A stretch of DNA of 64,000 bases. Origin: Rickettsiales bacterium (lineage in GTDB: Bacteria; Pseudomonadota; Alphaproteobacteria; Rickettsiales; SXRF01). The notes beneath the pieces are model-generated. The model was not told where the DNA came from and ran no database searches. It worked only from the letters and a program-made list of their open reading frames with translations. Numbering within the stretch: position 1 is the first letter of the stretch; each line of letters starts with the position of its first letter. The DNA lies in assembly GCA_025464625.1 (NCBI GenBank), contig JAOAUZ010000002.1, forward strand, positions 372,001 through 436,000. The letters run 5' to 3'. Shown piece after piece: positions 11,316 to 21,354 of this stretch. Both the position numbers and the translations under genes were made by a program.

Positions 11316-12200
11316 GTGGCGTTATCATTCCAACAGATGATTTTGAATTTGCACCAGTTTTGGGCAAATCAAGGCTGTGTTATTTTGCAGCCTTATGATA
11401 TGGAGGTGGGGGCAGGGACATTCCACCCTGCAACAGCTTTGCGCGCGCTTGGAACAAAAGATTGGAAAGCTGCTTATGTGCAGCCATCACGTCGTCCGAA
11501 GGATGGGCGTTATGGTGAAAATCCAAACCGCTTGCAGCATTATTATCAATATCAGGTGATACTAAAACCTTCGCCCGATAATATTCAGGAATTATATTTA
11601 GAGAGTCTGAAGATGTTGGGCATTGACCCGATGCAGCATGATATTCGCTTTGTTGAAGATGATTGGGAATCGCCGACTCTAGGAGCATGGGGCTTAGGTT
11701 GGGAGGTTTGGTGTGATGGAATGGAAGTTACGCAGTTTACTTATTTCCAGCAGGTCGGTGGCATTGAATGCAAGCCAGTTTCAGGCGAGATTACCTATGG
11801 TCTAGAGCGTCTTGCCATGTATATTCAAGGCAAGGAAAATGTGTACGATCTTGATTTTAATGGCGCAGGCGTTAGCTATGGCGAAGTATTTTTGCAAAAT
11901 GAAAAAGAATTTTCTGCTTATAATCTTGAATATGCTGACACTGAACAATTGCTGCGTCAATTTGAGGATGCGGAAAAAGAATGTAACTCATTGCTTGCAA
12001 AAAATTTGCCGCTTCCTGCATATGACCAATGTATAAAAGCCTCGCATCGATTTAACCTGCTTGATGCACGCGGAGTTATTTCGGTGACGGAACGAGCTGC
12101 TTATATAGGTCGCGTGCGCGCCCTAGCAAAAGGCTGTTGTGAAAGTTATGTAAACACCCAAACTGTCATACCGACGCAAGTCGGTATCCAGAATATATGA
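11316..12200 (+). CDS. glyQ: Glycine-tRNA ligase alpha subunit
   Basis: This 294-residue catalytic alpha chain of the bacterial alpha2beta2 glycyl-tRNA synthetase charges tRNA-Gly with glycine together with GlyS. The start is GTG at 11316 ([20 protein letters not shown]). Class II motif regions are clear: [20 protein letters not shown] near residue 54, [19 protein letters not shown] near 134 and the [11 protein letters not shown] motif near 159. The last 12 residues ([12 protein letters not shown]) are not native. They are encoded by a palindromic repeat (12164-12191) that belongs to the inserted GIY-YIG unit. The stop codon overlaps the start of the GIY-YIG gene (ATGA). The change is at the very end and is unlikely to harm function. 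glyS follows four genes later, so the glyQ-glyS pair is split. Confidence 0.95.
12164..12191 (+). repeat. Left palindromic repeat of the GIY-YIG unit, inside glyQ
   Basis: ATACCGAC (12168-12175) and GTCGGTAT (12180-12187) form a perfect stem with a GCAA tetraloop (a GNRA loop if transcribed). It is read in the glyQ frame as [10 protein letters not shown], a peptide typical of such repeats when they fall inside genes. Confidence 0.85.
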
Positions 12201-12481
12201 GCAGTGCATATGTTTATATTTTGGCAAGTAAAAGAAATGGTACATTATATATTGGGGTTACGAATAATATCACTCGTAGGGTGTGGGAGCATAAGCAAGG
12301 ATTGGCAGAAGGTTTTACTAGAAAATATAAGGTACATGCACTTGTATATGTTGAGTGTTTTGAGAGAATTGATGAAGCTATTTATCGTGAAAAACAACTT
12401 AAAGAATGGAAGCGTATTTGGAAATTGGAGCTTATTGAAAAATGTAATCCAGAATGGAATGATTTATATGAAACACTCTAA
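12197..12481 (+). CDS. Small GIY-YIG endonuclease-domain protein
   Basis: The protein has 94 residues, nearly all of them a single GIY-YIG (UvrC N-terminal/URI-type) domain. The two beta strands read YVYILASK and [12 protein letters not shown]. The catalytic Arg is in TRRVWEHK, and the metal-binding Glu lies in [14 protein letters not shown] near residue 75. Stand-alone proteins of this size are common and mostly uncharacterised. Its ATG overlaps the glyQ stop (ATGA) and has no clear Shine-Dalgarno, so it is probably translated by coupling to glyQ. It is flanked by perfect inverted repeats, which suggests a link between the nuclease and the repeat. DNA cleavage activity is likely from the intact motif, but its target is unknown. 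Confidence 0.9.
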
Positions 12482-12509
12482 CTGGATACCGACTTGCGTC
12501 GGTATGACG
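12482..12509 (-). repeat. Right palindromic repeat of the GIY-YIG unit
   Basis: This is an inverted copy of the repeat at 12164-12191, starting one base after the GIY-YIG stop codon and ending 17 bases before the phzF-like start. It has the same 8-bp stem, and the loop reads TTGC on the plus strand. The match to the left copy is perfect over 12482-12508. Confidence 0.85.
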
Positions 12510-12526: not shown

Positions 12527-13366
12527 ATGACGCAGCCGAATCTGTGGATTATAGACGCATTTACAGATGTTGCTTTTCGCGGAAACGCAGCAGCGGTGTA
12601 TTTGTTGTCTGAATTTTCCGATGATAAACAATTACAATTGCTGGCGATGCAAGCAAATTTGTCGGACACTGCCTTTGTGGTTCATAAACTCGCTTCTAAT
12701 TATGATTTGCGCTGGTTTACACCTGAAACTGAAGTGAAATTATGTGGTCATGCCACACTCGCAGCAGCGCATGTTTTAGTGCAGACTGGGCAAGCTAAAG
12801 CTGGTGACGTAATCACCTTCAATACGCTTAGTGGGGTATTAAAAGCAAAAATACTCAAAGATGGTATAGAACTTGATTTTCCAACTCTTGCGGGAAGTGT
12901 TGCCAAACCTGATTCTGCACTAAAGGCTCTGGGCGTTGATATTGTCGCTTGTGAAAAAAATCGTGATGATTTTCTGGTTGAGGTAAAAGATTTTGATACA
13001 CTACTCGCAATCAAGCCCGACATGAAAAAACTTGCCAAAATTGACGCACGCGGAGTTATTGTAACAACCGCTAACGGTGTTGACGGCTATGATTTTGCTT
13101 CACGCTTTTTTGCGCCTGCAATAGGCATTAACGAAGACCCTGTGACAGGTTCGGCGCATTGTTTCCTAGCTCCATACTGGGTAAAAAAACTGGGGAAAAA
13201 CAAATTCCACGCTTTGCAGGCATCACGCGCACGCGGTGTTCTAGACGTAACGCTTGCTGGTGACCGCACACTTATCAAAGGCAATTGCGTTACGACTATC
13301 AAGGGTACAATAAATTTTTCACAAAAACCAACAAACTCAAAAAATAAAAAGGAACTTCAAGCATGA
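12527..13366 (+). CDS. PhzF-family isomerase-like protein
   Basis: This 279-residue protein has the two-lobed diaminopimelate-epimerase fold of the PhzF/YddE family. The start is set at 12527 ([20 protein letters not shown]), the standard family start; the frame is open back to 12494 only because it reads through the repeat. Family motifs are [43 protein letters not shown] and [17 protein letters not shown]. The general acid/base in PhzF is a Glu in the (N)LSETAF motif. Here it is Asp, which could lower or alter activity. Members act in varied pathways and most are unassigned. It overlaps panD by four bases and probably shares its transcript. Confidence 0.88.
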
Positions 13367-18601: not shown

Positions 18602-19921
18602 ATGGTTGTAAAAGTCCGTTTTGCCCCATCTCCTACTGGTTATTTGCATCTTGGCAACGTGCGCACTGCGCTTGTCAACTATCTGTTTGCGCGTAAAACT
18701 GGTGGTGAGTTCTGGCTTAGGATTGATGACACTGATACAGATCGTTCCAAGGTGGAATATGAAGATGCACTCAAAGAAGATCTCGTATGGCTTGGTATAA
18801 AATGGGATGGGTTTTTTAAGCAGTCGGACAAATTCGCGCAGTATGAAATAGCCAAACAAAAACTCATTGCCTCAGGAAGGCTCTATCCTTGTTATGAAAC
18901 GCAGGAAGAATTGGATGTGCAGCGTAAAATGCAGGCTTCGCGCAGTCTTCCACCGATTTATAATCGTGCTAGCTTGAAACTAACTGATGAACAAAAAGCA
19001 AAATATGAAAATGAAGGGCGCAAACCGCACTATCGTTTTCTGCTCGAAGACAAACCAATAATCTGGCAGGATTTGATTCGTGGTGAAGCAAAATTTCAGG
19101 CAACTCACATGAGCGACCCTGTGTTGGTGCGCGAAGATGATGTTCCGCTTTATACTTTTGCTTCGGTGGTGGATGATGGTGAAATGGGAATCACTCATAT
19201 TGTGCGTGGCGAAGACCATGTTTCTAACACTGCTGTGCAGGTGCAGATTTTTGAGGCTTTGGGCTATACATTGCCAGTATTTGGGCATCTGGCACTGCTA
19301 AAAACCAAAGAAGGTGAGATGTCAAAACGGGTAGGTGGCAATGATATCCGCACGCTCCGCGAAAACGGCATCATGCCGATGGCGATTAATTCTCTACTGG
19401 CACATATCGGAACGTCGGATTCCGTTGAACCATATTTGGAATTGAACGAGTTGGTAAAAACATTTGATTTCAAAAAATTTGGTCGCGCACCTGCCAATTA
19501 TGATTCAGCAGAACTAGAAAAATTAAATGAAAAATTACTGCACAAGTTACCATTTTCAGAAGTAAAATCGTTAATTCCTTTCGCGGATGAAAAATTCTGG
19601 AATTCAATCCAAGCGAACTTAAAAAACATCACCGAAGCAAAAATTTGGTGGGATATTATGCATGGCGAGGTATCGGCAGATTTGAATTCTGAAGATTGTA
19701 CTTTCTTGCAGAAAATCCTCATTCTCCTGCCTATTGAACCGTGGAATGAATCCACTTGGGATGTATGGCTTGCTGCTATAAAGCCAACAACTGACCGCAA
19801 GGGCAAAGATTTATTCATGCCTATCCGTAAAGCACTCACAGGCTTGGATCATGGACCAGAATTTAAAAAACTATTGCCGCTACTTGGTCGTGATAAAACA
19901 GTAAAAAGATTAACTATATGA
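18602..19921 (+). CDS. gltX: Glutamate-tRNA ligase
   Basis: This 439-residue class I synthetase charges tRNA-Glu. The HIGH-like motif is in FAPSPTGYLHLGNVRTAL (residues 7-24), and the KMSKS-like motif is EGEMSKRVGGNDIRTL near residue 235. RIDDTDTDRSKVEY and HIVRGEDHVSNTA are typical. The C-terminal anticodon-binding part is short and divergent, as in the second GltX of several alphaproteobacteria, which have two copies and may charge tRNA-Gln with glutamate. Whether this is the discriminating form cannot be told from the sequence alone. It starts seven bases after ppdK and overlaps cysS by four bases. Confidence 0.93.
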   Translation: MVVKVRFAPSPTGYLHLGNVRTALVNYLFARKTGGEFWLRIDDTDTDRSKVEYEDALKEDLVWLGIKWDGFFKQSDKFAQYEIAKQKLIASGRLYPCYETQEELDVQRKMQASRSLPPIYNRASLKLTDEQKAKYENEGRKPHYRFLLEDKPIIWQDLIRGEAKFQATHMSDPVLVREDDVPLYTFASVVDDGEMGITHIVRGEDHVSNTAVQVQIFEALGYTLPVFGHLALLKTKEGEMSKRVGGNDIRTLRENGIMPMAINSLLAHIGTSDSVEPYLELNELVKTFDFKKFGRAPANYDSAELEKLNEKLLHKLPFSEVKSLIPFADEKFWNSIQANLKNITEAKIWWDIMHGEVSADLNSEDCTFLQKILILLPIEPWNESTWDVWLAAIKPTTDRKGKDLFMPIRKALTGLDHGPEFKKLLPLLGRDKTVKRLTI

Positions 19922-21354
19922 CCATTCAACTATACAACACCCTCACTCGCAAAAAAGAGGAATTAAATCCTGCGGACGCTAAAAACGTGCGGATGTATGT
20001 GTGCGGACCAACGGTTTATGATCGCCCACATCTGGGCAATGCCCGATCGGTGGTGGTGTATGATGTTTTATATCGTTTGCTGTGCCATGTTTACGGCAAA
20101 GAGTATGTCACTTATGTGCGCAATATCACTGATGTTGATGATAAAATAAACGCTGCTGCTAAAGCAAATAATGAGCCTATTTCTGCTCTAACCAAGCGGG
20201 TGGAAGGCTGGTTTCATGAAGATATGGGAGCATTAAATTGTTTGCTGCCAACTCATGAGCCACATGCCACTGACCATATCAAAGAAATGATAACTATAAT
20301 TGAAAAGCTGATTGCTGGCGGGCATGCTTATGTTTCGCAGGGGCATGTGCTGTTTCGCGTGGCGAGTTATAAGGATTACGGGCAGCTTTCTGGGCGCAAA
20401 TTAGAAGATTTAATCGCAGGTGCGCGGGTGGGGGTAGAAAGCTATAAAGAACATGCTGGCGATTTTGTGCTATGGAAACCAGCGGATAGCGAAGATGACT
20501 CAAGCAGCGTTTTTGCTTCACCTTGGGGTGCTGGTCGCCCTGGGTGGCATATTGAATGTTCAGCGATGAGCAGCAAATATCTGGGTGATGATTTTGATAT
20601 TCACGGTGGTGGTGCAGATTTGATGTTCCCGCATCATGAAAATGAAATAGCGCAGAGCTGCTGCGCTGCGCCAAAATCTAAATTTGCAAAAACATGGGTG
20701 CATAATGGTTTCCTCACCGTGAATGGCGAAAAAATGAGTAAATCACTCGGCAATTTTACTACGGTGAAGGATTTACTGGACAAAGGAGTACGCGGTGAGG
20801 TGATACGTCTAGCATTTCTCATGACCAAATATAATGAACCACTAGACTGGAGTGACAAGTTGCTTGATGACGCAAAGAGTACATTAGATCACTGGTACAG
20901 AAACAAAGGTTTGCAGGAATCAAATGGGATTAAAATCTATTATGATTCTCTACCTCCATTAAATTCAATGTTTTTAATGAGTTTGCAAAACGACCTTAAT
21001 ACTCCTATGGGCATATCTCTTATGTATACTGCTGCTCCTGACGATCGTCAGGCGATGGCTAACTTGCTTGGTATATTGCAATATTCAGCTGATGAGTGGT
21101 TTAAGGGCGGTGGTAGCACAGATAAAACCGAAAAACTATTCAATGCAGCTAAGGCTAGAGGAATTGATAGAGTCCCTGGGCAAGACTATGCAAAGTCAGA
21201 AGAAGAATTGATTAGTCGTATGATAGAATCGCGTAGTATGGCAAAATTAGCTAAAAACTGGGCGCAGGCGGATGGTATTAGAAAAGACCTTGCAGAACAA
21301 GGAATTATACTGGAAGACCGCCCTGACGGCACGACCGACTGGCGCAGGGAATAA
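19918..21354 (+). CDS. cysS: Cysteine-tRNA ligase
   Basis: This 478-residue class I synthetase charges tRNA-Cys. The N-terminal MYVCGPTVYDRPHLGNAR carries the zinc-binding Cys and the HIGH-like motif. GWHIECSAMS and FPHHENEIAQS hold further zinc ligands and are signature segments, and EKMSKSLGNFTTV is the KMSKS motif. The C-terminal DALR-type helical region is more divergent. The ATG overlaps the gltX stop (ATGA), so the two synthetases are translationally coupled. Length agrees with the family (about 460-490). Confidence 0.95.
   Translation: MTIQLYNTLTRKKEELNPADAKNVRMYVCGPTVYDRPHLGNARSVVVYDVLYRLLCHVYGKEYVTYVRNITDVDDKINAAAKANNEPISALTKRVEGWFHEDMGALNCLLPTHEPHATDHIKEMITIIEKLIAGGHAYVSQGHVLFRVASYKDYGQLSGRKLEDLIAGARVGVESYKEHAGDFVLWKPADSEDDSSSVFASPWGAGRPGWHIECSAMSSKYLGDDFDIHGGGADLMFPHHENEIAQSCCAAPKSKFAKTWVHNGFLTVNGEKMSKSLGNFTTVKDLLDKGVRGEVIRLAFLMTKYNEPLDWSDKLLDDAKSTLDHWYRNKGLQESNGIKIYYDSLPPLNSMFLMSLQNDLNTPMGISLMYTAAPDDRQAMANLLGILQYSADEWFKGGGSTDKTEKLFNAAKARGIDRVPGQDYAKSEEELISRMIESRSMAKLAKNWAQADGIRKDLAEQGIILEDRPDGTTDWRRE

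Follow-up and report, generated by a model that had tools for sequence, protein, structure and literature searches.

A probable mobile unit of about 350 bp that pairs a small GIY-YIG nuclease gene with inverted CGTC REPs

Introduction

The closest described systems are the REPtrons (RAYT/TnpA-REP), in which one nuclease gene lies between inverted REP hairpins, REP dimers occur genome-wide and the REP type is specific to its enzyme. The unit described here shares these features, including the flanking by gene-specific inverted REPs. However, the enzyme of REPtrons is a HUH tyrosine transposase (Y1_Tnp) and their REPs are GTAG-tagged, whereas the unit encodes a GIY-YIG protein (PF01541) and carries a (C/T)GTC tag; since enzyme and REP tag both differ, we regard the unit as REPtron-like, but not as a REPtron. 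Furthermore, RAYT genes "do not copy themselves", as stated in a passage of PMC8049555, whereas here the gene appears to move with its REPs. By analogy, the unit appears closest in plan to the RAYT-REP systems, and our best reading is that it is RAYT-like in role and unrelated in enzyme.

A separate group of REPs carries a CGTC tag. As outlined in parts of Di Nocera et al. 2013 (PMC3733652), it comprises the types CGTC-1 to CGTC-4 and includes dRS3 of Neisseria and RPE-4/RPE-6 of Rickettsia. The tag, the stem starting with AT, the loop of 4-5 nt, the CCA tail and the dimers described there are also found for the REPs of our window, i.e. the whole stretch of 64,000 nucleotides from a Rickettsiales genome (G000) that was analysed. 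CGTC REPs "apparently lack a dedicated transposase" according to these parts of PMC3733652, which report no dedicated enzyme, whereas here a candidate enzyme can be named.

GIY-YIG proteins are known from several other settings. Free-standing GIY-YIG homing endonucleases resemble the unit in their catalytic domain and as small selfish genes, but the unit has REP ends; because, in addition, the compared empty sites carry no REP and no extra Pfam domain is present, it does not appear to represent a typical homing endonuclease. The UPF0213 and prokaryotic Slx1-like GIY-YIG proteins share fold and minimal size with the nuclease. To our knowledge, UPF0213 has not been linked to REPs, no lone GIY-YIG protein joins DNA ends, no nuclease of GIY-YIG type drives a transposon alone, and no element uses a lone GIY-YIG enzyme in the way considered here. 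Penelope-like retroelements, which show variable target duplications, likewise encode a GIY-YIG nuclease, but the 344-bp unit lacks a reverse transcriptase. Their nuclease is thought to cleave the target, according to a passage of the GIY-YIG superfamily survey PMC1564403, and Slx1-Slx4 processes branched DNA, as given in the titles of PDB entries.

The initial annotation had suggested that a link between GIY-YIG nucleases and palindromic repeats may be undescribed. In agreement with this, no paper linking GIY-YIG nucleases to REPs was found among the matches listed in a search of the full-text literature, with subscription papers and preprints outside its scope; the sole listed match with both "GIY-YIG" and "repetitive extragenic" (PMC9465073) names, in the portion concerned, one gene of each kind (GIY-YIG and RAYT) within a single gene table, and the sections of PMC1564403 that were covered mention no REP link.

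Results

A REP-flanked nuclease gene at the 3' end of glyQ

The features of the locus and of a second site in the window are as follows.

11316..12200, + strand: glyQ; last 10 to 12 codons from the unit
12165..12508, no strand: putative mobile unit REP-gene-REP, 344 bp; absent in G190 and G192, present in G191
12165..12191, + strand: left REP, CGTC-1 type; tag (C/T)GTC, stem ATACCGAC/GTCGGTAT, loop GCAA, tail CCAG
12197..12481, + strand: GIY-YIG nuclease gene, 94 codons; PF01541 E 2e-17; ATG overlaps the glyQ stop (ATGA)
12482..12508, - strand: right REP, identical to the left 27-mer but inverted
12527..13366, + strand: phzF-like gene just 3' of the right REP; start codon picked by alignment with relatives
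19918..19952, + strand: empty site, intact gltX-cysS junction with ATGA overlap; the relative G199 carries a unit here

The initial annotation had described a 94-codon GIY-YIG gene that starts on the glyQ stop and lies between two inverted copies of a 27-base repeat, each forming a hairpin with a GCAA or TTGC loop. Indeed, the 27-mer GTCATACCGACGCAAGTCGGTATCCAG on the + strand (12165-12191) has an exact inverted copy on the - strand (12482-12508), and the ORF between the two copies matches PF01541, its ATG overlapping the TGA at 12198-12200. A 29-nt version of the repeat shows one mismatch between left and right copies, and 100 shuffles of the window contained no match at up to 3 mismatches. 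Both strands of the repeat are predicted to fold into a hairpin with an 8-bp stem and a GCAA or TTGC loop (free energies of -8.3 and -7.2 kcal/mol; folding z = -5.9 and -4.3, respectively). A structural REP scan of the whole window found no REP besides the flanking pair. The REPs do not represent intrinsic terminators, of which a simple scan found 0.

The repeat fits the CGTC-1 type, with a (C/T)GTC tag, an 8-bp stem starting with AT, a 4-nt loop and a CCA tail; the unpaired tag reads TGTC in the left and CGTC in the right copy. In three REP sets (71, 214 and 154 sequences), the base preceding GTC is C or T in 97-99% of the cases, and a pyrimidine-rich stretch lies directly upstream of the tag.

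The homology of GlyQ to its closest relatives breaks off at residue 282-284 of 294, with the exception of G191, which itself carries the glyQ unit. From this we conclude that about 10 to 12 codons at the end of glyQ derive from the left part of the unit, close to the 12 codons originally proposed, and that the left REP also codes for part of the new GlyQ C-terminus. The genus mates G190 and G192 and the family mate G197 have neither gene nor REP at the glyQ-phzF junction, their glyQ end is normal and the phzF-like gene directly follows. G191 carries the unit as in G000, i.e. one site is kept between two species. A comparison of these junctions had been proposed at the outset, with relatives that keep the gene here in the absence of repeats as evidence against a mobile unit; this was not so in the relatives compared (G190, G191, G192), where gene and repeats are either both missing, next to a normal glyQ end, or both present.

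In the genus g170 (G194 and G199), a degraded gene-less REP dimer is located at the glyQ end, and the glyQ end is thus a repeated landing place. The REP of this dimer supplies the glyQ stop codon in both genomes (L197 and L198). In G204, a four-helix-bundle gene (L199; PF05635, E 4.5e-37) follows glyQ between other inverted repeats, GGCTTCAGG... and ...CCGAAGCCC, which is perhaps another small mobile gene-repeat pair.

The nuclease and its relatives

PF01541 was found in all 64 members of the alignment A3, and a weak T5orf172 match in 17; the Pfam search of these 64 members revealed no extra DNA-binding (NUMOD-type) domain, the window protein being 94 aa long. Y7, Y18, G20, R28, E65 and N84 are invariant in A3, and we take the catalytic residues of the GIY-YIG family to be among them. 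An AF2 model of the 94-aa protein (pLDDT 93) is nearest in fold to UPF0213 (E 9e-5), the only PDB match with E < 0.001. Weaker matches (E 0.007-0.04, TM up to 0.60) are Slx1 structures and include Slx1-Slx4 with 5'-flap DNA, so that a hairpin would fit as the substrate of a structure-specific nuclease, as far as can be judged from the modelled fold.

Ka/Ks between the window nuclease and its G191 orthologue is 0.10. The 14 nuclease pairs tried gave 0.01-0.16 in ten cases, 0.31 and 0.35 in two, 0 in one and no estimate in one, i.e. the gene is mostly under purifying selection. A role as one of the anti-phage defence genes covered by PADLOC was rejected, because the search gave no match. Searches of plasmids and phages returned 35 and 11 records; phages are not an obvious vehicle for the unit, since at least 80% of the query was covered in only 1 of the 11 phage records. 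A second member of the family in G000 (L200, G000:C6:374753) is 52% identical and flanked by imperfect palindromes of a third type, GTCATCTCGAACGCAGTGAGAGATC.

Linkage of the nuclease to REPs across bacteria

A protein-based scan with the six-row alignment A2 led to named loci in many phyla; at least 586 relatives were confirmed, and we evaluated the best 80 of them, which are partly dependent (L101 and L109 share one genome, L103 and L135 another). By a strict structural rule, 38 of these best 80 of at least 586 had correctly oriented REPs on both sides, 25 had them on one side and 17 had none. By contrast, of 114 other ORFs in these loci with a length of 120 aa or more, 0 had them on both sides and 6 on one side (38/80 vs 0/114, p 3e-18; at least one side, 63/80 vs 6/114, p 7e-28). 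REP density outside such ORFs was 8.6 per kb up to 150 bp from the gene, compared to 0.38 per kb at distances above 600 bp. Sixteen of the 17 loci missed by the strict rule (again among the best 80 of at least 586) were viewed by eye and mostly show variant or longer GTCAT palindromes, an impression that serves neither as a count nor as evidence; in the 17th, L124, the REPs have the opposite orientation.

The initial annotation had proposed tabulating how often the gene is flanked by inverted copies. Inverted pairs were counted by a union rule, which is wider than the strict rule and replaced a general 5-bp-stem rule. Such a pair was present at 58 of the 80 homologues (best 80 of at least 586; shifted controls 1/143), at 23 of 29 viral-contig loci (controls 0/54), at 23 of 30 loci of the window's own order (controls 0/57) and at 52 of 103 loci of a class census (controls 1/198), the other 51 of which had no pair. 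For the census, 111 of 112 rows were read, leaving out the second fragment of a broken copy, and 8 shorter than 225 nt were dropped; the viral-contig set comprises 29 of 30 loci without the short match L094, and the own-order set the 30 of 33 matches with loci, one being the G191 copy of the window's unit. Any sign, including one-sided REPs, was detected at 77 of the best 80 of at least 586 loci, but also at 18 of 143 controls, and one-sided hits are therefore weaker evidence.

None of 15 other GIY-YIG loci (8 UvrC-length ORFs, 7 others) had a CGTC REP within 800 bp of the matched stretch. One of these, L209, is adjoined by a different inverted palindrome and is also counted in the class census; at L211, another of the 15, a REP lies about 890 bp away from the stretch matched.

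The inverted-pair rate in the census is steady from the closest to the most distant bin of identity to the window protein (13/25, 19/37, 13/27, 7/14), and strict both-side CGTC REPs drop with divergence from 11/28 to 1/17. Several distant paralogues lie between other inverted palindromes, e.g. TCATCCTGAGC...TCGAAGGATGA at L297 or GTCATCGCGAG... at L255 and L257, which were seen rather than counted.

The genome G085 contains two copies of a GIY-YIG gene (L255 and L257; 99% aa identity), around each of which the palindrome GTCATCGCGAG...GTGGCGATCCA is repeated several times. A Neisseria gonorrhoeae record filed as a plasmid (L201) carries a homologue that has no annotated feature and lies among dRS3-like REPs, where the plain REP-gene-REP arrangement is absent.

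Match between the enzyme and its REP type

At 78 loci, the left and right REPs are more similar to each other (identity 0.915) than REPs are between loci (0.715; 0/2000 permutations), and the left-right comparison in the two genomes with at least two scorable units gave 0.926 (n=5) and 0.714 (n=8). In the tree set, which includes 63 loci with REPs on both sides, the two REPs have the same length parity in 61 cases and are identical in 21.

The nuclease tree was built from 191 proteins minus 5 with stops in the matched stretch, leaving 186 rows, of which 101 were loop-labelled, 82 unlabelled, 2 mixed and 1 of another type. Even-length REPs with a 4-nt loop (69 rows) and odd-length REPs with a 5-nt loop (32 rows) require 14 changes on this tree, compared to 27.3 when loop types were shuffled and 26.1 when they were shuffled within host groups, with 0 of 300 shuffles as low as 14; the tree is poorly resolved (92 columns, 105 of 183 forks open), and the shuffles were run on the identical tree. 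Within the own class alone, 6 changes contrast with 13.4 in the shuffles (lowest 9). Loop type is thus tracking the nuclease tree beyond host group. Taken together, the matching arms and the loop type that follows the nuclease tree point to a direct recognition of the hairpin by the protein.

Empty sites and target duplications

Four empty-site comparisons, i.e. at glyQ-phzF, sufB-sufC, the G014 site and gltX-cysS, revealed relatives that have neither REP nor gene at the respective position. In Azospirillum lipoferum 4B, sufB and sufC are separated by a unit that is bordered left and right by REP dimers, whereas A. oryzae, A. ramasamyi and strain B510 (94-95% identity) contain neither an insert nor a REP at this position. 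G147 is without the G014 unit and its REPs, with a diverged spacer and edges that are not sharp; the genera of G123 and G014 offered one other genome each for such a comparison.

In G199, a REP-nuclease-REP unit is located in the junction of gltX and cysS, as we name these genes from their translations, together with a perfect 35-nt duplication of the 5' end of cysS. The junction is simple in G000 (in the window) and in G197. L121, from a named Rickettsiales bin, shows the insertion as in G199 and was not counted again. At the same junction, L435 (G191) has an insert of about 1 kb with a REP-like remnant adjoining cysS, and the insert of L426 (G194) contains a decayed second cysS 5' end and two small ORFs, which look to us like a BrnT-BrnA toxin-antitoxin pair.

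Among unit-unit alignments, 168 cover the gene and 30 reach both REP outer edges, 25 of which stop no more than 6 nt away; such edges are expected of a unit in unrelated surroundings, and the shared REP consensus contributes to them. Within the genus, the number of nuclease copies is 0 in G190, 2 in G000, 2 in G192 and 4 in G191. Of the features by which DNA transposons and insertion sequences are recognised, terminal inverted repeats are thus present and movement as a unit is supported.

A target duplication is clean in one unit insertion (35 nt, G199), and two weaker cases were found: a 15-16 nt repeat flanks the unit at the 3' end of a thiC-like gene in L361 (G196), presumably thiC judging from its translation, and a direct repeat of about 23 nt flanks a degraded gene-less dimer at an acs-like 3' end (L023, G000:C2:82118). 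Direct repeats with a score of at least 12 outside the REP pairs were more frequent than expected by chance, being detected for 7 of 75 unit-like pairs (null 0.5%) and 11 of 102 dimers (null 0), many of which are REP arrays. For freshly fetched gene-less dimers, 30 of 32 had no direct repeat with a score of at least 10; of the 40 stretches fetched, 8, including some chosen as single REPs, contained no dimer by the rule, and the other 32 entered the scoring. Long direct repeats at L150 and L122, which include REPs, and at L252 and L258, which lie among repeated REPs or arrays, were rejected as target duplications. From this we conclude that target duplications are not the rule. The four empty-site comparisons and the clean 35-nt duplication nevertheless support the minimal mobile unit that the initial annotation had proposed.

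Alternatively, the nuclease could act as a homing endonuclease that cuts existing REPs or dimers, which would then be its target, with the gene copied in by recombination through REP sequence. Free-standing homing endonucleases do occur among GIY-YIG nucleases (in a passage of PMC1564403), REP dimers share the inward orientation of the unit, and the degraded gene-less dimer in g170 occupies the very glyQ end at which the unit lies in G000. However, the empty relatives examined at the four compared sites carry no REP, so that REPs and gene were gained or lost together there, 35 nt of host sequence are duplicated at gltX-cysS, left and right REPs match far above chance, also in the two genomes with at least two scorable units, and Pfam finds no extra DNA-binding domain. 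We therefore consider homing unlikely and favour a unit whose REPs and gene move together.

The REP class and its spread in genomes

A search of the 1.9-Mb genome G000 with a loose REP pattern, allowing up to 2 mismatches, gave 31 matches (backward control 2), which represent the REP class and not the exact 27-mer; of the closest two, one is a 1-nt variant and the other a partly degraded copy. Ten of the 31 form five gene-less inward pairs, oriented like the unit and with starts about 60 bp apart. The repeat class is thus not unique to the glyQ site; its restriction to this site had been named beforehand as a finding that would speak against a mobile unit. The 1-nt variant of the unit's REP (L003 and L410; G000:C6:8858-8884) lies in frame inside a gene that we take to be ybeY-like, where it reads LDTDFRRYD, a 9-residue insert, and presumably resembles the intragenic RPEs of Rickettsia.

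Among 190 genomes of the class, the nuclease gene is present (best E < 1e-18; 7 genomes whose matches are weaker counted as without) in 25 of 31 with at least 10 REPs and in 28 of the 159 others (p 2e-11). This association holds in small and large genomes but is not significant in the 2-3.5 Mb stratum (p 0.16), and 28 of the 53 gene-bearing genomes fall below 10 REPs by the pattern applied. Six of the 31 REP-rich genomes lack the gene, the sole GIY-YIG match being a UvrC-length ORF in 4 of these 6, which implies that REPs can outlive the gene or do without it. Y1_Tnp (PF01797) was matched in only 9 of the 31 REP-rich genomes, one of them under the cut-off, and neither in the other 22 nor in G000; given this lack of a match in G000, RAYTs were rejected as the source of its REPs.

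These data also bear on a passive association, in which another enzyme, such as a RAYT, spreads the REPs and GIY-YIG genes are cargo in REP-rich intergenic places. It would account for the genomes that have REPs in the absence of the gene, and REPs are known landing sites of insertion sequences, as stated in part of PMC1525189. Such an association is nevertheless improbable, even more so than homing, considering that a REP pair flanks 0 of 114 other ORFs, that the arms match and loop type follows the nuclease tree, and that Y1_Tnp matches are absent as described above. A domesticated nuclease with DNA or RNA hairpins of REPs as its substrate, which would act e.g. in repair or in the control of neighbouring genes and no longer move, is the least probable alternative: it would agree with the purifying selection in most pairs, the UPF0213- and Slx1-like fold and the glyQ unit kept at one site in G000 and G191, but is at odds with copy numbers of 0 to 4 within one genus, units in unrelated surroundings and the perfect target duplication at gltX-cysS, which implies recent movement.

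Discussion

We consider it likely that the locus is a mobile unit of about 350 bp, in which a stand-alone GIY-YIG gene of Slx1-like type is bounded by two inverted CGTC REPs and the nuclease is their dedicated partner. As anticipated by the initial annotation, the nuclease is linked to a palindromic repeat much as RAYTs are to REPs, and this linkage recurs across phyla with strong controls. A point against this reading is that G000 has only about two near copies of the unit's REP type beyond the flanking pair.

In the mechanism that we propose, the nuclease would recognise the REP hairpin, either as a single strand or as a cruciform, and cut beside the pyrimidine-GTC foot. The REP-gene-REP strand, freed or copied, would then join a staggered break at another site, in some cases at least a gene end or a stop/start overlap, where fill-in would leave a duplication of variable length. 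Provided in trans, the enzyme would also spread gene-less REP dimers. At glyQ, the unit would have landed just upstream of the stop, and read-through of the REP would supply the new C-terminus, so that the host gene survives.

With less confidence, although we still lean towards it, lone GIY-YIG nucleases may mobilise a whole superfamily of GTCAT-type palindromes, which would comprise the CGTC REPs and, through more divergent paralogues, related ones such as GTCATCGCGAG..., TCATCCTGAGC... and GTCATCTCGAACG...; the hairpin type recognised would then be specific to each nuclease clade.

CGTC REPs are widespread, the paper defining them left the spreading agent open, and a small candidate enzyme makes the question testable. 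If this wider reading is true, REP-gene-REP units, with a length of about 350 bp, would rank with the smallest self-coding transposable elements, in a class defined by GIY-YIG chemistry, and gene-less REP dimers would be their non-autonomous offspring. If the candidate enzyme is confirmed, it would add a second, independent REP-plus-nuclease partnership beside the RAYTs, and it would explain many genes that are unannotated or recorded as "GIY-YIG nuclease family protein", as well as some altered protein ends.
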